Assembly: GCF_030209445.1 (NCBI RefSeq)
Contig: NZ_JARVSD010000031.1
Location: 1-41,855, forward strand
Source of the DNA: Promicromonospora sp. MEB111
GTDB lineage: Bacteria > Actinomycetota > Actinomycetes > Actinomycetales > Cellulomonadaceae
DNA: 41,855 bases
Direction of reading: 5' to 3'
In this document: positions 5,553-37,276 of the stretch, piece by piece
Layout: the number at the start of each line of letters is the position of its first letter
How positions within the stretch are numbered: the stretch's first letter is position 1
The notes under the pieces: model-generated
What the model was told of the DNA's origin: nothing
Seen by the model: the letters and a program-made list of their open reading frames with translations, nothing else
The model's database searches: none
Program-made: the position numbers and the translations under genes

Positions 5553-5620
5553 ACCCTCATCCTCTCCGGAGGCCCGCCCGGAACGCTCGCTCATTCCACG
5601 GGCCGGGCACCCCACCGGAC

Positions 5621-5664
5621 GTGTCAGACGTACAGATCACTCGAGTGACCTGTACGTCTGACAC
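5621..5664. repeat. 44-bp loop-free palindrome, family A copy 1
   Basis: Two 22-bp arms meet with no spacer: 5621-5642 begins GTGTCAGACGTACAG and 5643-5664 is its reverse complement with a single mismatch. It lies between the obgE stop (5709) and the proB start on the minus strand. A second copy at 22630-22673, inside the cydC coding sequence, has the same length and matches at 37 of 44 positions. As RNA it would fold into a 22-bp hairpin, but no U-run follows on the minus strand. It may stop or stabilise obgE mRNA, or be a mobile palindromic element. Confidence 0.85.
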
Positions 5665-5708
5665 TGCTCAGGCTCTGCTGGGCTGCCGGCCGAACCTGCG
5701 GCTCCGGC

Positions 5709-16745: not shown

Positions 16746-18242
16746 GTGGAAGCTCTCGACCTGGCACGCTGGCAGTTCGGCATCACCACCGTCTATCACT
16801 TCATCTTCGTCCCGCTCACGATCGGGCTGGCCCCGCTCGTCGCGATCATGCAGACCGCCTGGGTCCGGACGGGGAACGAGCGGTGGCTGAGGCTGACCAA
16901 GTTCTTCGGCAAGCTCTTCCTGATCAACTTCGCGCTCGGCGTCGTGACGGGCATCGTCCAGGAGTTCCAGTTCGGCATGAACTGGAGCGAGTACTCCCGG
17001 TTCGTCGGCGACGTGTTCGGCGCCCCGCTGGCCATGGAGGCCCTCGCCGCGTTCTTCGTGGAGTCGACGTTCCTCGGCCTGTGGATCTTCGGCTGGGACC
17101 GCCTGAACAAGAAGGTGCACCTGGCCTGCATCTGGGCCGTGGCGATCGCGGTGAACCTGTCGGCCTTCTTCATCCTGGCCGCCAACTCGTGGATGCAGCA
17201 CCCCGTGGGCGCCCGGTACAACCCCGAGACCGGCCGCGCCGAGATGGAGTCCATCTGGGCGATCCTCGCCAACAACACGCTGTGGGCGGCCTTCCCGCAC
17301 GCGGTCGCGGCCGCGTTCCTGACGGCCGGGACGTTCGTGGCGGGCATCGCCACGTGGTGGATGGTGCGGCTGGCCCGGACCAAGAAGCCCGAGTCCGTCG
17401 AGCTCGCCCGGAACGTGTACCGCCCCGCCGTGATCCTCGGCACAGTGGTCATGCTGGTGGCCGGGGTCGGCGTGGCGCTGACGGGCGATGCCCAGGGCAA
17501 GCTGATGTTCGAGCAGCAGCCCGGGAAGATGGCGTCGGCCGAGGCGCTGTGCGAGGGCGAGGAAGCGGCGAACTTCTCGATCCTCACGATCGGCGACCTG
17601 TCCAACTCGTGCGAGGGCGTGCGGCACATCCTGGAGGTGCCCGGCCTGGCCAGCTACCTCGGCACCGGGCACTTCTCCGGACCGGAGAGCTTCCTGCCCG
17701 GCGTGAACGACGTGCAGCAGGAGTACTCCGAGCGGTACGGCGAGACCGACGACGACGGCAACGCCATCTCCTACACGCCGAACCTCGCCGTCACCTACTG
17801 GAGCTTCCGGCTCATGATCGGGTTCGCCGCCGGGTCCGCGCTGCTCGCCCTGGCCGCCCTCTGGTTCACCCGTGGCGGCCGCGTCAGCGACAACAAGTGG
17901 CTCGCCCGCATCGGCCTCATCGCGATCCCCACACCGTTCCTCGCCTCGTCGTTCGGCTGGATCTTCACCGAGATGGGCCGCCAGCCCTGGGTGGTGGCGC
18001 CCAACCCCACCGGCATCGACCAGATCCGCCTGCTCACCATGCGCGGCGTCTCGGAGGTGGTGAGCCCGGGCATGGTGCTCACCTCGATGATCGTCTTCAC
18101 GCTGCTCTACGGCGTGCTGGCCGTGGTCTGGTACCGCCTCATCCACCGGTACGCGATCGAGGGCGTGCCCACGACCGTCCGCGACGAGTCGCCCGAGGCC
18201 GCCCCGGACGACTCCGACCGGCCCCTCTCGTTCGCGTACTGA
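16746..18242 (+). CDS. cydA: cytochrome bd oxidase subunit I
   Basis: CydA carries hemes b558, b595 and d of the quinol:O2 oxidoreductase, a high-affinity terminal oxidase in the plasma membrane. The 498-residue protein starts with GTG 16746 (MEALDLARWQFGITTVYHF; heme ligand His18) behind CAGGAGCCCGGA. Further markers are GIVQEFQFGMNW, FFVESTFLGLWIFGWDRL, the quinol-binding loop region at about 245-330 and the GRQPW motif in FTEMGRQPWVV. Nine or so membrane helices are evident. The quinol loop is of the short type. It is the first gene of cydABDC and is headed by a Rex operator. Confidence 0.97.
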   Translation: MEALDLARWQFGITTVYHFIFVPLTIGLAPLVAIMQTAWVRTGNERWLRLTKFFGKLFLINFALGVVTGIVQEFQFGMNWSEYSRFVGDVFGAPLAMEALAAFFVESTFLGLWIFGWDRLNKKVHLACIWAVAIAVNLSAFFILAANSWMQHPVGARYNPETGRAEMESIWAILANNTLWAAFPHAVAAAFLTAGTFVAGIATWWMVRLARTKKPESVELARNVYRPAVILGTVVMLVAGVGVALTGDAQGKLMFEQQPGKMASAEALCEGEEAANFSILTIGDLSNSCEGVRHILEVPGLASYLGTGHFSGPESFLPGVNDVQQEYSERYGETDDDGNAISYTPNLAVTYWSFRLMIGFAAGSALLALAALWFTRGGRVSDNKWLARIGLIAIPTPFLASSFGWIFTEMGRQPWVVAPNPTGIDQIRLLTMRGVSEVVSPGMVLTSMIVFTLLYGVLAVVWYRLIHRYAIEGVPTTVRDESPEAAPDDSDRPLSFAY

Positions 18243-18309
18243 GGATGCTCCCGCCCCGCAAGACCCCCGACCTCCAGACCCTTCAGACCCTTCAGACAAG
18301 GAAGTGACC

Positions 18310-19359
18310 GTGGACCTCGCACTCCTGTGGTTCTTCATCATCGCGATCCTGTGGACCGGGTACCTCGTGCTCGAGGGGTTCGACTTCGGCGTCGGGATGC
18401 TCATGTCCCTGCTCCCCCGTGGCAGGGCGGAGCACCGGGAGAAGGAACGTCGGGTCCTCCTGAACACCATCGGACCCGTCTGGGACGGCAACGAGGTGTG
18501 GCTGATCACCGCGGGCGGCGCCACCTTCGCGGCGTTCCCCGAGTGGTACGCCACCCTGTTCTCCGGGTTCTACCTGCCGCTGCTCCTCATCCTGGTGGCA
18601 CTGATCGTGCGCGGTGTCGCCATCGAGTACCGCGGCAAGATCTCCGACGCCCGCTGGGCACGGCGCTGCGACGTCGCGATCCAGGTGGGTTCCTGGGTGC
18701 CCGCCCTGCTCTGGGGCGTGGCGTTCGCCAACCTGGTCCGCGGTGTCCAGCTCGACGAGGCGCACCAGTACGTGGGCGGGTTCTGGGCCCTGATCAACCC
18801 GTTCTCGCTGCTCGGCGGCGCCACGACGCTCGTGCTGTTCCTGCTGCACGGGTCCGTGTTCGTGGCGCTGAAGACCGACGGTGAGATCCGGGCGCGGGCG
18901 CGGCGGTTCGCCGGCGTGCTGTCGCTGGTGGCCCTGCTGGTGGCCGGCGGGTGGGCTCTCTGGGCACAGCTCGCGTTCTCCGTGACCTGGACCTGGGCGG
19001 CCGTGGCGGTCGCCGCGCTGGGCCTGGTCGGCGTCGCGCTGACGAACCGGGTCGGGCGCGAGGGCTGGGCCTTCGGGCTGTCGGCCGTAGCGATCGTCGC
19101 GGCCGTGGTGCTGATCTTCGGATCCATGTTCCCTGACGTCATGCCCGGCCTGGACGGCGGGAACTCCCTGACCATCGCCGAGGCGTCGTCGACCCCGTAC
19201 ACCCTGACCATCATGACCTGGGTGGCCGCGTTCCTCACTCCCCTGGTGATCCTCTACCAGGGGTGGACCTACTGGGTCTTCCGGCGCCGGCTCACGGTGG
19301 ACCACATCCCCGCGCCGGCCGGCCTGACCTGGAAGAAGATCAAGGAGTCGGCGTTCTGA
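18310..19359 (+). CDS. cydB: cytochrome bd oxidase subunit II
   Basis: CydB is the structural partner of CydA in the bd oxidase. The product starts MDLALLWFFIIAILWTGYLV and has LEGFDFGVGML (about 22-32), the conserved GPVWDGNEVWLITAGGATFAAFP region, and LLPLLLILVALIVRGVAIEYR-like helix 3; about eight to nine helices are present. I prefer GTG 18310 (349 aa), since AAGGAAG sits at the right distance; GTG 18304 would add two residues. The 67-bp gap from cydA contains a short direct repeat, CAGACCCTT twice. It is in one operon with cydD, which starts 34 bp downstream. Confidence 0.97.
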   Translation: MDLALLWFFIIAILWTGYLVLEGFDFGVGMLMSLLPRGRAEHREKERRVLLNTIGPVWDGNEVWLITAGGATFAAFPEWYATLFSGFYLPLLLILVALIVRGVAIEYRGKISDARWARRCDVAIQVGSWVPALLWGVAFANLVRGVQLDEAHQYVGGFWALINPFSLLGGATTLVLFLLHGSVFVALKTDGEIRARARRFAGVLSLVALLVAGGWALWAQLAFSVTWTWAAVAVAALGLVGVALTNRVGREGWAFGLSAVAIVAAVVLIFGSMFPDVMPGLDGGNSLTIAEASSTPYTLTIMTWVAAFLTPLVILYQGWTYWVFRRRLTVDHIPAPAGLTWKKIKESAF

Positions 19360-19393: not shown

Positions 19394-21619
19394 ATGAAGC
19401 CCCTCGACCCCCGCCTGCTGCGGCAGGTGCACGCGGCCCGCTGGTACGTGGCGCTCACGGTCGGGCTCGGCGTGGCCGCCGCCGGGCTGATCGTGGCGCA
19501 GGCGCTCCTCATCGCCGCGATCCTGACGCCGGTGGTGCGCGGGGACGGCGTGGCCGGGCCGGAGCTGGTGCGCTCCGTCGCGTGGCTCGCGTTCGTCGTC
19601 GCGGGGCGCGCCGCCGTCGCCTGGGCCCAGGAGCGGTACGCGCTGCGCGCGGCCGCCCGCACCATCGCCGAGCTGCGGCGCGCCGTGGTGGAGGCGTGGG
19701 CGCTGCGCGGCCCGCGGGCGAGCTGGCCGACGGCGGACGGCGGTGGTGTCGCAGGCGGTCCGGCGGCGACAGACGGCGCGGCGCCCGGCAGCAGTACGGC
19801 GGACGGCGGCGCGGCGGCGAACATCCCCGCCGCGGCGTCGGGCAACGGGAGCGGGGCGAGCCCCGAGGCCGAGGTCGCGACCCTCGCGACGCGCGGCCTG
19901 GACGCGCTGGAGCCGTATCTCGTGCGGTACGTGCCGCAGCTCGTGCTGACGGCGCTGCTCACCCCCGCCCTCGTGTGCGTGGTGTTCGGCCTGGACTGGG
20001 TCTCGGCCGTCATCGCGATCGTGACGCTGCCGCTCGTGCCCGTGTTCATGGTGCTCGTGGGGCGGCTGACGGCGGGAACCTCGGAGCGCCGCCTCGCCAC
20101 CGTGGAGCGGCTCGGCGCCCAGGTGCTCGACCTGGTCGCCGGGCTCCCGACCCTGCGCGCCTTCGGCCGGTCGTTCGGGCCGGGCGAACGGGTGCGCGCG
20201 CTGGGCGACGCCTCGCGCAGGGCCACGATGGGCACGCTGCGGATCGCGTTCCTGTCCTCGATGGTGCTGGAGCTGCTCACCACGCTGTCGGTGGCGATCA
20301 TCGCCGTGGGCGTCGGACTGCGGCTCGTGGAGGGCGCCATGTTGCTGGAGCCGGCGTTGGCGGTGCTGGTGCTGGCGCCGGAGATCTATCTGCCGCTGCG
20401 GCGCGTGGGGGCCGAGTTTCATGCGTCGGTGGACGGGGTGGCGGCTGTGGATCGGGCTTTCGCTCTTCTCTCTCGTTCTGCTGGTTCGTTTGGTTCGGTC
20501 CGGTCGGAGGGCGAGGACGTCCCTGCGCCGCCTCGCTCACGCTCGCTCGTTCCTCGCTCCCTCCGCTACGGCTTGACGGCGGCGCAGGGACGTCCTCGCC
20601 CTCCGACCTCGGCTGGTGACTCGCCTCCTGGGGTGGGTGGCGACAGCGACGCCGATGGTGGGGTGGGTGGCAGGGGTCTGGGGCCGGCGGGTGGGGGCGG
20701 CGGTGCAGGGGGTGGTGCGGAGGCCGTGGTGTTGGAGGGGGTTTCCGTGCGGGCTGGGGGGCGGGGGGTGGTCGCTCCTGCCGGGTTGTCGGCTCGGATT
20801 CCGCTCGGAGCCGATGGCGCCGGAGGCGCGGGCGGGGGCCGCGGCGGTACGGGTGGGTTGGTCGTCGCGCTGCGGGGGCCCAGCGGTGCGGGGAAGTCGA
20901 CCGCCGTGCTCACGATCCTCGGGCTGCTGGCACCGGATGCCGGGCGGGTGGGTCTGCTCCTGGGCGACGGCACGTTCCGCGACCTGGCCGACGCGTCCGC
21001 CGACGAGCTCGCGGGCTGGTGGGCCGGGCTCACCTGGGTGCCGCAGCGGCCCGCGCTCCCGCCGGGGCGGCTCCGGGACGTCGTGCTGGAGGGGGCCCGG
21101 ATCGGTGTCTCGGACGCGGACGGCGACCTGGCCCTCGCCGGGGCGGCGCGGTTGACCGGGCTGGACGCCGTCGTCGGCTCGCTGCCCGACGGGTGGGACA
21201 CCCGCGTCGGGCTCGGCGGGGTGGGGCTGTCCGTGGGGCAGCGCCAGCGGGTCGCGCTCACGTCCGCCCTGCTCGACGACGCGACCGCCCGGCCGCTGGT
21301 GATCCTCGACGAGCCGACCGCGCACCTCGACGCGCGTGGCGAGCAGGCCGTGCTCGACACGGTCCGGGCCTGGCGCGACGCCGGGCGGACCGTGCTCGTC
21401 GTCGCGCACCGGGCATCGCTGCTCGCCCTCGCGGACCAGGTGATCGACGTCCGCTCGGCGGCGGACCCGACGGACGCGACGGACCGGGCGGACCGGGCGG
21501 ACTCGCCGGGCTCGTCGGACGCCGCGGACCCGACAGAGCCGGCCACGCCCGCGGGCGGTGCGCCCGGCTCCGCGGACGGGCCGGCATCCGACCTCGCGAT
21601 CGACCGGGGGACACGATGA
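19394..21619 (+). CDS. cydD: ABC transporter CydD, heterodimeric thiol/heme-linked exporter subunit
   Basis: CydDC is an inner-membrane ABC transporter needed to assemble cytochrome bd; glutathione/cysteine or heme is reported as ligand. This 741-residue subunit has a six-helix membrane domain (about 1-350) with an Ala/Gly insert at about 115-155. The ATPase domain shows Walker A GPSGAGKS (495-502), Q-loop TWVPQRPALP, signature LSVGQRQRVAL and Walker B LVILDEPTAHLD. A Ser/Asp/Pro-rich tail ends the protein. It is about 150-200 residues longer than usual. Part of that is a 107-bp palindromic element translated in frame at residues 370-405, followed by a Gly-rich linker. Codons just before the palindrome (20438-20500) use T at third positions, unlike the rest. 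Its stop overlaps the cydC start (ATGA). Confidence 0.93.
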   Translation: MKPLDPRLLRQVHAARWYVALTVGLGVAAAGLIVAQALLIAAILTPVVRGDGVAGPELVRSVAWLAFVVAGRAAVAWAQERYALRAAARTIAELRRAVVEAWALRGPRASWPTADGGGVAGGPAATDGAAPGSSTADGGAAANIPAAASGNGSGASPEAEVATLATRGLDALEPYLVRYVPQLVLTALLTPALVCVVFGLDWVSAVIAIVTLPLVPVFMVLVGRLTAGTSERRLATVERLGAQVLDLVAGLPTLRAFGRSFGPGERVRALGDASRRATMGTLRIAFLSSMVLELLTTLSVAIIAVGVGLRLVEGAMLLEPALAVLVLAPEIYLPLRRVGAEFHASVDGVAAVDRAFALLSRSAGSFGSVRSEGEDVPAPPRSRSLVPRSLRYGLTAAQGRPRPPTSAGDSPPGVGGDSDADGGVGGRGLGPAGGGGGAGGGAEAVVLEGVSVRAGGRGVVAPAGLSARIPLGADGAGGAGGGRGGTGGLVVALRGPSGAGKSTAVLTILGLLAPDAGRVGLLLGDGTFRDLADASADELAGWWAGLTWVPQRPALPPGRLRDVVLEGARIGVSDADGDLALAGAARLTGLDAVVGSLPDGWDTRVGLGGVGLSVGQRQRVALTSALLDDATARPLVILDEPTAHLDARGEQAVLDTVRAWRDAGRTVLVVAHRASLLALADQVIDVRSAADPTDATDRADRADSPGSSDAADPTEPATPAGGAPGSADGPASDLAIDRGTR
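20502..20608. repeat. 107-bp palindromic element inside cydD
   Basis: Perfect 31-bp arms, 20502-20532 (GGTCGGAGGGCGAGGACGTC...) and 20578-20608, flank a 45-nt loop rich in GCTCGCTCG-like steps. The element is read through as CydD residues 370-405, between the membrane and ATPase domains, with no stop in frame. It is the longest perfect inverted repeat I found in the window. Confidence 0.93.
20660..20683 (+). other. potential G-quadruplex motif in cydD
   Basis: Four G-tracts (20660-20663, 20665-20667, 20673-20676, 20680-20683) with loops of 1, 5 and 3 nt fit the canonical quadruplex pattern on the coding strand. Further G-runs continue to 20768. It encodes the Gly-rich linker just after the palindromic element. 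Whether it folds is unknown. Confidence 0.5.
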
Positions 21620-23496
21620 CCGACCAGCTGACCCGGGAGCCGGCCGGTCCGACCTCCCCCACGCCCGGACCGGGCCGCGATCCGCTGCGGCGCATCCTGC
21701 CGCTGCTGGAGGTCCGGCCCGGCAAGGTCGCCGCGGCGATCGCGCTGGGCGTGCTGGCCCTGGCCTGCGCGATCGGGCTCGCCGCCGTCGCCGCCTGGCT
21801 GGTCGCCCGCGCGTCGCAGATGCCGCCGGTGCTCACCCTCTCGGTGGCGGTCGTGTCGGTGCGGGCCTTCGGCATCGGGCGCGGCGTGCTGCGCTACTGC
21901 GAGCGCCTCGCCTCGCACGACGTCGCCCTGCGGGGCATGGCCGCCCTGCGCGCCAACCTGTACGAGCGGCTGGCCGCGGACGACCGGCCGGTCACCGTCC
22001 GGCGTGGCGAGCTCCTGGCGCGGGTCGGGCAGGACGTCGACGACGTCGGTGACGTCGTGGTGCGCGCGATGGTGCCCGCCGGCGTCGCGGTGGTGACGTC
22101 GCTCGGCTCCGTGATCCTGCTGGGTGTGCTACTGCCCGCCGCGGGCGTGGCGCTGGCGTTCTGCCTGGTGCTGGCGGGCGTCGTGACGCCCTGGCTCGCC
22201 GCGCGGGCCGCGGCCCGGACCGAGGCGCGGGGCGCGGCGGCCCGCGGCGAGGTCACGGCGCTGTCCCTGGAGCTCCTGGAGGAGTCGGCGCCGCTGCGCG
22301 TCGCGGGTCGGTTCGACGCGCGGCTGGCCGACCTGGACGCCGCCGACGCGCGTCTGTCCGCCGTCGCCGACGACGGCGCCCGCACCTCCGGCCGCGCCGC
22401 CGCCCTGGGGGCGCTGGCCCAGGGCCTCGCGGTGCTGGCGTCGCTGGCGTTCGGGATCCCGGCGGCGCTGGCCGGGACGCTGTCGCCCGAGGCGCTGACG
22501 GTGATCGTGCTGACGCCGCTCGCCGTGTTCGAGGCGACCGCGGGGCTGCCCGCCGCTGCGGTCCAGCTGCACCGGTCGCGCGAGGCGGCGCGGCGGCTGC
22601 TGGCGCTGCTGCCCGCCGACCAAGCTGACGTGTCAGACACACAGGTCACTCGGGGGATCTGTGCGTCTGACACGTCGGGGGGTGGCGCCGACGCGGCGCT
22701 GCTCACCCTCAGTGACGTCGCCGCGGGCTGGCCCGGTGCGGACGGCGGGCCGGTCGTGGCCGTCGAGGGGGTGTCCCTCACACTGCGGCCGGGGTCGGTC
22801 GTCGCGCTGGCGGGCGCGTCCGGCGTCGGCAAGACGACCCTGCTGATGACGGCGGCCGGGCTGATCGCTCCCGTGGCCGGCATCGTCGAAAGGTCGGTAG
22901 ATCGTGAGGTGATCGGCAGCCCGGACTACCGATCACCTGACGGTCCACCGACCGAGCGGGTCCCGGACGCGCTGTTCGTCGGCGAGGACGGGCACGTGTT
23001 CGACACCACTGTGCTGGAGAATCTCCGGGTCGCGCGCGGGGACGTCACCGCGGACGAGGCCCGCGAGGCGCTCGACGCCGTCGGGCTGGGCGACTGGCTC
23101 GCCGCGCTGCCGACCGGCCTGGACACCGTGGTCGGCACGGACGCGGCGGCGGTCTCCGGCGGCGAGCGCCGTCGGCTGCTGGTGGCGCGGGCCCTGCTGG
23201 CGCCTGCCCGGGTGCTGCTCGTGGACGAACCGGCCGAGCATCTCGACGGGCGGACCGCCGACGCGCTGGTGGACGCCGTCGCCGCGCACGCCCGCGCGAC
23301 GGGCCGCGCGGTGCTGCTGGCCACGCACCGGCTGACGCCGCTGGCCGTCGCGGACGAGGTGCTGCTCCTGGCGGACGGTACCCCGGGCGCACCGGACTCG
23401 GCCGGGGCACCGGCAACCGTCGTGGCCCGGGGCCGGCACGAGGACCTGCTCGCCACGGATCCGGCCTACGCCTGGGCGGCCGCGCAGGAAGCCTGA
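21616..23496 (+). CDS. cydC: ABC transporter CydC, partner of CydD
   Basis: CydC pairs with CydD to form the transporter required for cytochrome bd maturation. The start is ATG 21616, overlapping the cydD stop, giving 626 aa. Six membrane helices span about 35-335. The ATPase domain has Walker A GASGVGKT (400-407), signature VSGGERRRLLVARALL, Walker B VLLVDEPAEHLD and the switch His in LLATHRLTP. Two palindromic elements are translated in frame: residues 339-353, at the linker before the ATPase domain, and 426-446, between Walker A and the Q-loop. Where a Q-loop Gln is expected, I read FVGEDGHVFDTT, so the Gln may be replaced by Glu. The frame is otherwise intact. Upstream frame extension to 21019 is not coding. 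Confidence 0.93.
   Translation: MTDQLTREPAGPTSPTPGPGRDPLRRILPLLEVRPGKVAAAIALGVLALACAIGLAAVAAWLVARASQMPPVLTLSVAVVSVRAFGIGRGVLRYCERLASHDVALRGMAALRANLYERLAADDRPVTVRRGELLARVGQDVDDVGDVVVRAMVPAGVAVVTSLGSVILLGVLLPAAGVALAFCLVLAGVVTPWLAARAAARTEARGAAARGEVTALSLELLEESAPLRVAGRFDARLADLDAADARLSAVADDGARTSGRAAALGALAQGLAVLASLAFGIPAALAGTLSPEALTVIVLTPLAVFEATAGLPAAAVQLHRSREAARRLLALLPADQADVSDTQVTRGICASDTSGGGADAALLTLSDVAAGWPGADGGPVVAVEGVSLTLRPGSVVALAGASGVGKTTLLMTAAGLIAPVAGIVERSVDREVIGSPDYRSPDGPPTERVPDALFVGEDGHVFDTTVLENLRVARGDVTADEAREALDAVGLGDWLAALPTGLDTVVGTDAAAVSGGERRRLLVARALLAPARVLLVDEPAEHLDGRTADALVDAVAAHARATGRAVLLATHRLTPLAVADEVLLLADGTPGAPDSAGAPATVVARGRHEDLLATDPAYAWAAAQEA
22630..22673. repeat. 44-bp palindrome, family A copy 2, inside cydC
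   Basis: Begins GTGTCAGACACACAGG and ends CGTCTGACAC; with flanks the arms are 21 bp (22627-22647 and 22656-22676) with two mismatches. It is the same length as, and identical at 37 of 44 positions to, the palindrome at 5621-5664. Here it is coding, read as CydC residues about 339-353 (VSDTQVTRGICASDT) at the junction of membrane and ATPase domains. Confidence 0.88.
22892..22953. repeat. palindromic element inside the CydC ATPase domain
   Basis: Arms 22892-22916 (starts GGTCGGTAGATCG) and 22929-22953 are 25 bp with three mismatches around a 12-nt loop. It is translated in frame as about residues 426-446 (RSVDREVIGSPDYRSPDG region), in the surface loop where homologues usually carry a short beta-turn after Walker A. 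No second copy is seen in this window. Confidence 0.82.
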
Positions 23497-23512: not shown

Positions 23513-23567
23513 CGACCATGCACCTGCTGCCAGACGGAACCGCGGCCTGGCAGCAACTGCATGGTCG
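23513..23567. repeat. hairpin between convergent cydC and sensor kinase gene, family B
   Basis: Arms 23513-23533 (CGACCATGCACCTGCTGCCAG) is paired with 23547-23567 with two mismatches, around a 13-nt loop. It lies 16 bp after the cydC stop and 39 bp before the kinase stop, so it could serve as a two-way terminator. The inner part TGCTGCCAGACGGA resembles TGCTGCCAGGCGGA in the hairpin at 28759-28829. Confidence 0.83.
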
Positions 23568-28737: not shown

Positions 28738-28758
28738 CGCCGCCGGGCCGCACCACCC

Positions 28759-28829
28759 CCGGTGTTGACCACAGCGGTTGCTGCCAGGCGGAGGGCCCAG
28801 GTGGCAGCAGCTGCTGTGGTCAACACCGG
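28759..28829. repeat. hairpin between convergent permease and oxidoreductase genes, family B
   Basis: Arms 28759-28786 (starts CCGGTGTTGACCACAGC) and 28802-28829 are 28 bp with two mismatches, around a 15-nt loop. It lies 21 bp after the permease stop and 30 bp before the oxidoreductase stop. GACCA-N7-TGCTGCCA within the arms and a RCGGA start to the loop are shared with the hairpin at 23513-23567. Confidence 0.87.
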
Positions 28830-28859
28830 TGGGTCAGCCGGGAGGGCAGCCCCGGGAGG

Positions 28860-32874: not shown

Positions 32875-32883
32875 CGCCTCGTC

Positions 32884-32938
32884 GAGTGCTGGGTAGGTGT
32901 TGCTCCGAGCGCTTGGAACCAACACATACCCAGCACTC
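32884..32938. repeat. hairpin between convergent dehydrogenase gene and mutM, family C copy 1
   Basis: Arms 32884-32902 (GAGTGCTGGGTAGGTGTTG) and 32920-32938 match with one mismatch, around a 17-nt loop. It starts 9 bp after one stop and ends 19 bp before the other. Read on the minus strand it has ACCGTTGAGTGCTGGGTAT, almost identical to the arm start of the element at 37188-37260. Confidence 0.87.
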
Positions 32939-32957
32939 AACGGTGCGGGGCGGGCGG

Positions 32958-34139
32958 TCAGAGACCGCGCGGGCGCGGCTGGCAGACCGGGCAGCTGAAC
33001 GACGACCGATTCATGAACGCGTCGCGGCGCACCAGCGCACCGCAGCGGCGGCACTCCTCGTTCTCCCGGCCGTACACGGCGAGCGACCGGTCGAAGTACC
33101 CCGACTGGCCGTTGACGTTGACGTACAGCTCGTCGAAGCTTGTGCCGCCCTGGGCGAGCGCCTCGCGCATCACCTCGGCCGCCGAGTCCAGCACGCGGCG
33201 CACGTCCGCCGCCCGCAGCTTGTCGGTCGCCCGGGCCCAGTGCACCTGCGCTCGCCACAACGCCTCGTCGGCATAGATGTTGCCCACGCCGGACACGACC
33301 GTCTGGTCCAGCAGCGCGCGCTTGACCTGTGTCCGACGGCGGCGGAACCGGCCCACCAGGGCGTCCAGGTCCAGGTTCGGGTCGAGCAGGTCGCGCGCGA
33401 TGTGTGCCACCGGCTCGGGCAGCACGGGCAGGTCGGAGCCGTGGCCGGCGGGAACGCTCGGAGCCGACGGAGCTGATGCGGCCTGCGGAGACGCCGTGCG
33501 CGACGGCGCAGTGATCGGCCGCCGAGCGCCCGACGTCGCGGCAGCACTCGCCCGGGGCGCGCTGCCGTCGGGCACGAGGTCCTGGACGCTCAGGTGCCCG
33601 AAGGTCCGCTGGTCCACGAAGTCGAGGTACCGCGCGCCGGAGGGGGCGCCCTCCAGGTGCAGGCGGACCCGGAGGTGGGGGTGCTGCCAGTCGTCCGCCG
33701 CGTCGGCGGCACCGGTCGGGATCCGGGCGGGCTCCTCGCCCGGGGCCGCGGTCGGCACGGCACCGCGCACGAGGAGCTGGCCCGACATCCCGAGGTGCGC
33801 CAGCAGGGCCGCGGCGGGGCGGGGTTCGGCGGGGGTCGCGGGCTCGGCGGGCTCGGCCGCCGGGGCGGGGTTCGCCGACGGGGCCGCATCGGGCGCCGGC
33901 GCCGGGGCCGAAGCCGAAGCCGCGGCCTCGGGCTCCGTCAGCGGCAGCCAGAGGAACTTGCCGCGGCGCACCGCGGCCGCCAGACGCTGTCCGGTGAGCT
34001 GGTCGCGGAAGGAGTCCGGGCCGCCGTCGTGCCTGCGGACGCTGTACTCGCGGAAGACCTCGACCTCGCGCACCACGGCGCCCACGACGAGCCGGTCGAG
34101 ACCGTCACGGACGGTCTCGACCTCGGGGAGCTCAGGCAC
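32958..34139 (-). CDS. mutM: formamidopyrimidine-DNA glycosylase with two linker expansions
   Basis: MutM (Fpg) excises 8-oxoguanine and cuts the strand by beta,delta-elimination. After Met removal the catalytic Pro is residue 1 ([14 protein letters not shown], with Glu next). Lys61 in RRGKFLWL, the helix-two-turn-helix [25 protein letters not shown] (about 271-295) and a zinc finger with Cys363, 366, 383 and 386 (ECRRCG and FSCPVCQ) are all present. At 393 residues it is about 100 longer than usual. The excess is two Ala/Pro/Ser inserts at residues 69-109 and 194-238, both outside catalytic motifs. GTG 34139 overlaps the rnc stop by 8 nt, so the two are coupled. Confidence 0.96.
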
Positions 34140-34953
34140 CGGCGGCCGGCGCCTTGCTCGCGTCAGACTTGCTCGCGTCCGGCTTGCTCGCGGGAGCCTT
34201 GTGCGCGGCCGACGCGTCGGCGCCGTCGGCCTTGTCGGGCAGCGGGAACTTCTCCAGCAGGGCCCGGTAGGTCTCCTCGGCGGCCCCCTGCTCGGCGTGC
34301 TTCTTCGCGGTGCCGGAACCCGACCCGTAGGTGACGCCGTCGATCACGACGGTCGAGTGGAAGACCCGCGCGTGCTCCGGCCCTTCGAACGTGGCGATGT
34401 AGTCCGGCGAACCGAGACCGCGCTCGGCGGACGCCTCCTGCAGCGAGGTCTTCCAGTCGAGGCCCGCGCCCAGCCCGGCGGCGACGTCGAGCGTCGGGTC
34501 CACCAGCCGGTGCACCAGCGCGCGCGAGGTCTCCAGGCCGTGCGACAGGTACGTGGCGCCGATCAGCGCCTCGACCGTGTCGGACAGGATCGAGTCCTTC
34601 TCGAAGCCGCGCGTGCGGATCTCGCCCTTGCCGAGCAGCACGTACTTGCCCAGGCCGAGAGTGCGTGCGATCGCGGCGAGCGCGCGCTGCGACACCGTGG
34701 CCGCGCGCATGCGCGCCAGGTCGCCCTCCGACTGGTCCGGGTGACGCCGGTACAGCGCCTCGGTGACCACCAGCCCCAGCACCGTGTCGCCCAGGAACTC
34801 CAGACGCTCGTTGGTGGGGATGCCCCCGGCCTCGTGCGCGAACGACCGGTGGGTCAGTGCCAGCACAAGAAGCTCGGGGTCCAGATGGACCCCGAGCTTC
34901 TCGAGCAGCGCGGTAGGTTCCGGCCTCGCCGGGGCCGTCCCGCCCTTGGCCAC
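34132..34953 (-). CDS. rnc: ribonuclease III
   Basis: RNase III cuts double-stranded RNA and matures rRNA. The 273-residue protein has the signature [13 protein letters not shown] (48-60), the second metal site in [12 protein letters not shown], and a dsRNA-binding domain (about 165-235, [29 protein letters not shown] with later [14 protein letters not shown]). The tail of about 35 residues is Lys/Ser/Ala-rich and encoded by a 15-bp repeat. The start is GTG 34953, one base after the rpmF stop. The order yceD-rpmF-rnc-mutM is common in actinobacteria. Confidence 0.97.
34153..34197 (-). repeat. 15-bp tandem repeat in the 3' end of rnc
   Basis: Three units starting CTTGCTCGCG at 34153, 34168 and 34183 encode a (K/S)-x-DASK-like tail. 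Being in multiples of three, copy-number change would keep the frame. Confidence 0.8.
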
Positions 34954-37164: not shown

Positions 37165-37187
37165 GCCCACGACCCTAACCCGCCCGC

Positions 37188-37260
37188 CGAACCGTTGAGT
37201 GCTGGATATTTGCCCTTCTGGCACACGAAAAAGGGCGAATATCCAGCACTCAGCGGTTCG
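37188..37260. repeat. hairpin between EEP gene and rsmD, family C copy 2
   Basis: Arms 37188-37217 (starts CGAACCGTTGAGTGCTGG) and 37231-37260 are 30 bp with two mismatches, around a 13-nt loop. It lies 17 bp beyond the stop of the minus-strand gene at 37277. The GTTGAGTGCTGG-x-TAT core is shared with the hairpin at 32884-32938, 4.3 kb away. Confidence 0.9.
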
Positions 37261-37276
37261 GGCGGGGGCTGGGGGG

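Follow-up and report, generated by a model that had tools for sequence, protein, structure and literature searches.

The window, the whole stretch of 41,855 nucleotides analysed here, comes from the 6.2-Mb genome of Promicromonospora sp. MEB111 and carries cydA, cydB, cydD and cydC in this order, all on the plus strand, as called with our own codon-usage gene caller. CydD and CydC pass the NCBIfam cut-offs of TIGR02857 and TIGR02868, respectively. Comparisons within the genus use 13 Promicromonospora genomes, namely the host of the window (G000) and 12 others, among them Promicromonospora sp. AC04 (G007) and Promicromonospora citrea (G001). The features discussed below are as follows.

5619..5666, plus strand: the other T element of the window, in the intergenic gap separating two minus-strand genes
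16746..18242, plus strand: cydA (cytochrome bd subunit I), upstream of cydDC on the same strand
18304..19359, plus strand: cydB (cytochrome bd subunit II)
19394..21619, plus strand: cydD
20502..20532, plus strand: left arm of the cydD palindrome
20533..20577, plus strand: 45-nt spacer between the two cydD arms
20578..20608, plus strand: right arm of the cydD palindrome, an inverted copy of the left arm
21616..23496, plus strand: cydC
22628..22675, plus strand: T element, a 48-bp palindrome in frame in cydC (residues 338-354, linker between TMD and NBD); VSDTQVTRGICASDT
22891..22954, plus strand: G element, a 64-bp palindrome in frame in the NBD of cydC (residues 426-447); RSVDREVIGSPDYRSPDGPPT
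23513..23567, plus strand: hairpin from a third family, which has fewer matches; it directly follows the cydC stop and lies in a convergent gap

A first-pass annotation had placed three palindromes in the open frames of cydD and cydC, and all three are confirmed once arms and frames are checked. The cydD repeat has two 31-nt arms (20502-20532 and 20578-20608) that are 100% complementary across a 45-nt spacer; the G palindrome has 31-nt arms (22892-22922 and 22923-22953) that are 84% complementary with no spacer. The middle palindrome is equally real, with 21-nt arms of 90% complementarity and an 8-nt spacer, but its arms lie at 22627-22647 and 22656-22676, not within the 22630-22673 given earlier. 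Folding z-scores are -10.3 for the cydD repeat, -7.1 for T and -9.1 for G, and in each case none of 200 shuffled sequences is equally stable. A scan for inverted repeats with arms of at least 18 nt, at most 10% mismatch and a spacer of up to 60 nt, for which the G palindrome is too imperfect, returns 10 in the window and none in any of six dinucleotide shuffles. Seven of the 10 are intergenic and three lie within called genes; long hairpins are thus common here, and the unusual part is the position inside genes. No Rfam family reaches its gathering score between 16000 and 26000.

The cydD palindrome has a history of its own. Its left arm is native linker DNA common to relatives (G006 matches 29 of the 31 bases, and similar residues are encoded in G008 and G012) and encodes the peptide SVRSEGEDVPAP, while the right arm is private to the host among the 11 genomes with data, none being seen by eye in the other 10. 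The CydD linker stretch is 342 nt in the host versus 150-210 nt in those 10 genomes. No other copy of the spacer was found, nor any relative of it among the loci compared, and a search of the host genome with the 151-bp cydD region (E <= 0.001, 40 of 77 candidates scored) returned only the region itself and its own arms. We reject membership of a repeat family, given the lack of a further copy in these searches and a left arm that is native in other species. As judged from the sequence comparison, the palindrome looks like a recent inverted duplication of native linker DNA, in which 31 bp would have been copied inverted beside itself, probably by template switching during replication. Third-position GC is low (0.68-0.76) around the CydD linker, at 20432-20773 and in G002, G006, G007, G008 and G012, compared with 0.87-0.97 in most other stretches of these genes.

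T and G are dispersed repeats. Copies placed on the host genome number 80 for T and 15 for G; 39 aligned T copies define the 48-bp palindrome (one 47-nt copy, L179, is omitted) and 15 aligned G copies the 64-bp palindrome (16 places were fetched, and two short partial matches, C3:52785 and C11:184126, were left out). Arm pairing is kept in 93.8% of T cells and 90.2% of G cells in these alignments. Cells changed on both sides of a pair number 39 in T and 25 in G, compared with 17.9 and 10.0 in shuffles that take no account of the relatedness of copies, and none of 500 shuffles reaches the observed counts. T subfamilies differ at three stem positions, with both arms changing together. The end pair is formed in 27 of 33 distinct T copies and 10 of 15 G copies, such that an unpaired GTAG/CGTC tag is absent in most. 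Two T elements sit at host contig ends (G000:C24:1-44 and C30:420279-420326), where the hairpins have perhaps halted assembly.

Model searches find both T and G in all 13 Promicromonospora genomes. Counting both strands together, with 150 candidates scored per genome, T matches number at least 150 in the host and from 16 to at least 150 in the other 12 genomes (at least 150 in G000, G004, G005, G009 and G010), and G matches range from 2 in G001 to 126 in G012. Across the order, a search with the T model under stricter filters than in the genus, considering the best 30 candidates per genome, yields matches at E <= 1e-4 in 8 of 198 genomes including the host; the best score in the 197 other genomes is 40.9 bits, compared with 79.4 bits in the host. 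In other genera of the same family, matches (12, both strands) occur in one of the 14 genomes listed. The 13-nt core of G is absent from the 79 loci checked for it, and T has no match in viral contigs (exact pattern), plasmids or phages. The genus may hold further families of this kind: a hairpin of the type ACCACAGCGG...GCTGCC-like occurs at gene ends of the window (28756-28832) and, by eye, also after cydC in G002 and G011, and these ACCACAGCGG-type hairpins suggest that there are more hairpin families in the genus. The intergenic hairpins at 32880-32942 and 37187-37261 share GAGTGCTGG and its inverse, and perhaps represent one more.

Most copies lie at the 3' ends of genes. The 80 host T copies comprise 33 in convergent gaps, 37 in tandem gaps, 2 in divergent gaps, 2 at contig edges and 6 in called ORFs, one of which (L163, low score) is judged spurious. 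Divergent gaps hold 2 of the 72 T copies that lie between genes, whereas 29 of 78 gaps of at least 40 nt without T on the same stretches are divergent (Fisher p = 4.8e-8), and in tandem gaps T lies a median of 12 nt from the upstream stop and 70 nt from the next start. The 14 G copies outside the window are distributed similarly (6 in convergent and 7 in tandem gaps, 1 within a gene and none in a divergent gap), and only two (L202 and L208) of 37 further loci, mostly from other species, are called divergent. T and G thus lie downstream of coding regions and rarely in divergent gaps, which is the placement reported for REP elements; at these gene ends it is their position and stability that are observed, and a terminator role is putative.

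A minority of copies is found in frame inside genes for unrelated enzymes. Among host proteins, CydC and SUMT (cobA; uroporphyrinogen-III methyltransferase, above the TIGR01469 cut-off) contain an internal T, a ThiO-like oxidoreductase that scores below its cut-off has T as its C-terminus, and two further genes take their final residues and stop from T; G is internal to CydC and MshB (below the TIGR03445 cut-off, with MshB structures among its PDB relatives). The T inserts share one reading frame (VSDxQ...); of 77 host copies, 58 have this frame open. By cmsearch, G is present in CydC in 9 of 12 genomes with data, one of them weakly, with no match in 3 of 12, and in MshB in 9 of 13 genomes, the MshB frame being split in G012; T is present in SUMT in 7 of 13 genomes and in CydC in 6 of 12, two of them weakly, with no match in the other 6. 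The same peptide without a palindrome is not seen for G, as CydC and MshB orthologues without the element also lack its peptide, and is seen in part for the left arm in cydD. Some orthologues without a T match retain a shortened or decayed peptide (CydC of G007 and G008; SUMT of G003, G006 and G008), which we read, in the case of CydC, as relics of the element.

Several further copies cluster around these sites. The CydC linker of G009 contains T with its flank in three tandem copies at 108-nt spacing, all in frame (L141, 4279-4542). MshB has a T match of 41 bits in G005 (L274, 1797-1838) and a weak one of 22 bits in G008 (L270, 2028-2076), and host MshB near residues 93-110 likely contains a T relic, as seen by eye. 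Extra T copies flank cobA in G004 (L282, 926-973 and 1353-1401) and G009 (L283, 1026-1073 and 1454-1501).

G001 and G011 are nearest the genus root in a tree with supports of 0.80-0.83 (G004 lacks CydC and MshB data, and G012 lacks MshB data); both are without G in CydC and MshB and without T in SUMT, and G011 has a weak T match in CydC. The simplest history is that T and G were gained at these sites within the genus and later lost in some lineages, with losses in G006 (G in CydC) and in G007 and G008 (G in MshB) that must be assumed. In other genera the CydC G site is a short loop (Isoptericola, Krasilnikoviella, Xylanimicrobium and Puerhibacterium) or a longer loop of other sequence (Cellulosimicrobium, Oerskovia and Myceligenerans pegani). 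At the CydC, SUMT and MshB sites, neither a target duplication nor an exact insertion footprint is readable.

We find that the inserts are far less constrained than the folded parts of the same proteins. In CydC, pN and pS are 0.203 and 0.171 in the G insert and 0.230 and 0.152 in the T insert, whereas the transmembrane part has 0.043 and 0.289 and the later NBD 0.065 and 0.326; the T insert of SUMT (0.243 and 0.276) and the G insert of MshB (0.183 and 0.188) behave alike. Over inserts of 13-17 synonymous sites each, and from non-independent pairs, pN/pS is 0.9-1.5 versus 0.1-0.23 in the folded flanks. With pN close to pS, the peptides are not conserved as peptides. The CydC linker beside T (residues 353-362) is equally unconstrained (pN 0.349, pS 0.360), so that values near 1 partly reflect the site. 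In an AlphaFold2 model of CydC (mean pLDDT 87.9), residues 1-5 aside, pLDDT falls below 50 at 340-356, 431-440 and 442-446, in or at the two inserts. The inserts are low-confidence loops in this predicted structure, and an alignment composed mostly of sequences without inserts may be a partial cause of the low pLDDT.

Across species, genic copies also pair more loosely than dispersed host copies. The median number of arm mismatches is 6 in 14 genic T copies from several species versus 2 in 71 dispersed host copies (p = 1.6e-8; 3 of the 80 host copies, without a 48-nt core, are left out), a comparison that is biased because the dispersed set consists of the best-scoring copies while the genic copies come from several species; when only host copies are considered, 4 mismatches, the number in the two internal T copies, are also reached by 11 of the 71 dispersed ones. 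Genic G copies likewise carry more mismatches than dispersed host copies (p = 0.017). Covariation among the copies at one locus is not above shuffles for T in SUMT and is weak for G in MshB and T in CydC; for G in CydC it exceeds shuffles, the count of pairs changed on both sides being reached by 6 of 500. The synonymous rate of the CydC G insert, 0.171, is lower than the 0.29-0.34 of its flanks, and this insert may have undergone recent conversion or be constrained at the DNA level. For each genic copy, the closest relative comes from the same locus in 5 of 8 cases for G in CydC, 5 of 9 for G in MshB, 3 of 7 for T in SUMT and 2 of 7 for T in CydC; such counts fit one old insertion as well as repeated conversion and do not separate the two.

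Taken together, we consider it likely that T and G are two mobile-repeat families of Promicromonospora that are occasionally tolerated in frame, and that the cydD palindrome is a separate event. Copy number, subfamilies and filled versus empty sites point to multiplication within the genus by a copying process. The usual landing place would be directly after stop codons, where a long hairpin most likely ends or protects transcripts; an occasional copy would land in a gene. Only one frame of the T consensus is open, and this does not hold for every subfamily, and the survivors are therefore those in that frame and in flexible loops, probably at the CydC linker (T), an NBD loop of CydC (G), SUMT (T) and MshB (G). 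There the element, given its open frame, would be translated as a passenger peptide, inherited within the genus with amino-acid drift and a slow loss of pairing. The proposal that all three palindromes resemble the RPE of Rickettsia thus holds for T and G, which form dispersed families, recur in frame in unrelated genes, occupy permissive loops and are absent from several orthologues, and fails for the private inverted duplication in cydD.

A bolder form of the mobile-repeat reading, which we put forward tentatively and think is probably too strong, is that T and G spread in a free-living actinobacterium without a RAYT, by a process that copies perfect hairpins, that their peptide inserts have repeatedly remodelled conserved enzymes, and that the symmetry of dispersed copies is actively maintained. 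One candidate for the copying would be a host factor that works on the single-stranded DNA of the lagging strand, with symmetry kept by selection or by hairpin-guided correction. A RAYT-type Y1 transposase (PF01797) was found in none of the 13 genus genomes by a search that, as a control, finds Y1 in 5 of 14. This finding also fits the strongest alternative, namely that both families are fixed sites with a function in DNA or RNA, acting as bidirectional terminators, as protein-binding sites or as uptake-type signals paired as terminators, and that their genic copies became coding after rearrangements. The strong 3'-end placement and rarity in divergent gaps, the well-kept pairing of dispersed copies and the two cases in which T provides C-terminal residues and a stop (L151 and L226) all argue for fixed sites. 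We nonetheless think this account possible but unlikely, as convergence would hardly yield near-identical copies, subfamilies included, at dozens of loci, copy number varies widely between species (for G, from 2 in G001 to 126 in G012, both strands), and the inserts of CydC, SUMT and MshB are internal rather than read-through at gene ends.

The first-pass annotation had also raised a role in transcript folding, and hairpins in cydDC could in principle regulate the operon through such folding or through RNase III processing between subunits. The predicted hairpins are indeed very stable, and the CydC G copies retain some covariation, but species without the element, together with looser pairing of genic copies across species, make a conserved folding role in cydDC unlikely. 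The same elements occupy unrelated genes, the MshB G, SUMT T and CydC T copies exhibit little or no covariation above shuffles, CydC lacks a match to G in 3 and to T in 6 of 12 genomes, and the cydD palindrome is confined to the host among the 11 genomes with data; we regard operon regulation as very improbable. Slightly less probable still is that all three palindromes are one kind of element and that cydDC is a hotspot for its insertion: cydC was indeed entered by two different families, and MshB holds G in 9 of 13 genomes along with T matches of 41 bits in G005 and, weakly, of 22 bits in G008, but the cydD repeat matched itself alone in the host genome and other species carry its left arm as native DNA. 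That the palindromes are accidents of conserved protein sequence, with DNA symmetry arising by chance, is hardly credible, as the SVRSEGEDVPAP peptide of the cydD left arm in relatives without the palindrome is outweighed by the absence of comparable repeats from six shuffles, the many copies elsewhere, insert pN close to pS and the missing G peptide in orthologues without G. A native conserved peptide was likewise dropped as an origin for T and G, on the basis of insert pN close to pS and of peptides that are missing or decayed in orthologues.

The best-known palindromes translated in frame are those of Rickettsia. RPE are described in PMC10969869 and PMC3733652 as dispersed palindromic repeats of several families, about 150 bp long with a CGTC tag at one end, that occur between genes and in frame in unrelated genes whose proteins are likely functional. 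T and G resemble RPE in being dispersed palindromic families found in frame in CydC, SUMT and MshB and absent in some orthologues. Unlike RPE, compared here by description, they are 48 and 64 bp long, nearly symmetric and paired to their ends in most copies, and they reside mostly at gene 3' ends in an actinobacterium with a 6-Mb genome.

REP elements tagged with GTAG/CGTC are described in part of PMC3733652 as small palindromes that lie mainly between convergent or unidirectional genes, with some in genes. T and G share with RAYT-associated REP a position downstream of coding regions and rarely in divergent gaps, but differ from them in that most copies have no unpaired tag and the Y1 transposase was not found in the 13 genomes. 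Membership of the RAYT/REP class is rejected on these two grounds. The RU elements are MITE-like, with terminal inverted repeats, unlike T and G, which are almost wholly stem. In enterobacteria, ERIC and RU are small repeats with ORFs inside genes, according to passages of PMC10969869 and PMC2759123, and the latter gives RU repeats of 103-168 bp.

As long hairpins at convergent gene ends, T and G are also like the intrinsic terminators of high-GC actinobacteria, and several relatives have, by eye, hairpins of different sequence after cydC. They differ from intrinsic terminators in sharing sequence at dozens of loci and in lying also within proteins; to our knowledge, ordinary terminators neither repeat a single sequence at dozens of loci nor occur inside proteins.

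The title of a 2002 paper cited in PMC10969869 calls in-frame palindromes 'a unique but recurrent feature', and REPs inside genes are reported in several species in part of PMC3733652. Among the open-literature titles and abstract openings listed for Promicromonospora, Micrococcales and actinobacterial repeats, none describes such elements in this group. T and G in frame are RPE-like biology in an actinobacterium, and 'three of a kind' is true for two. This adds a second lineage that is unrelated to Rickettsia, has large genomes, yielded no RAYT and offers both empty and filled sites across 13 species. Three questions become testable: how palindromes multiply in the absence of a RAYT transposase, which factors let a peptide insert persist and at what rate a hairpin decays after becoming coding.

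A further inverted repeat of the window, with 21-bp arms and a 2-nt spacer, lies at 34863-34906 near the called ORF start of the RNase III gene rnc (34132-34953, minus strand). RNase III autoregulates its own expression in Streptomyces coelicolor, as stated in part of PMC10126417, and by this analogy we guess that the rnc hairpin may be a self-cleavage site.
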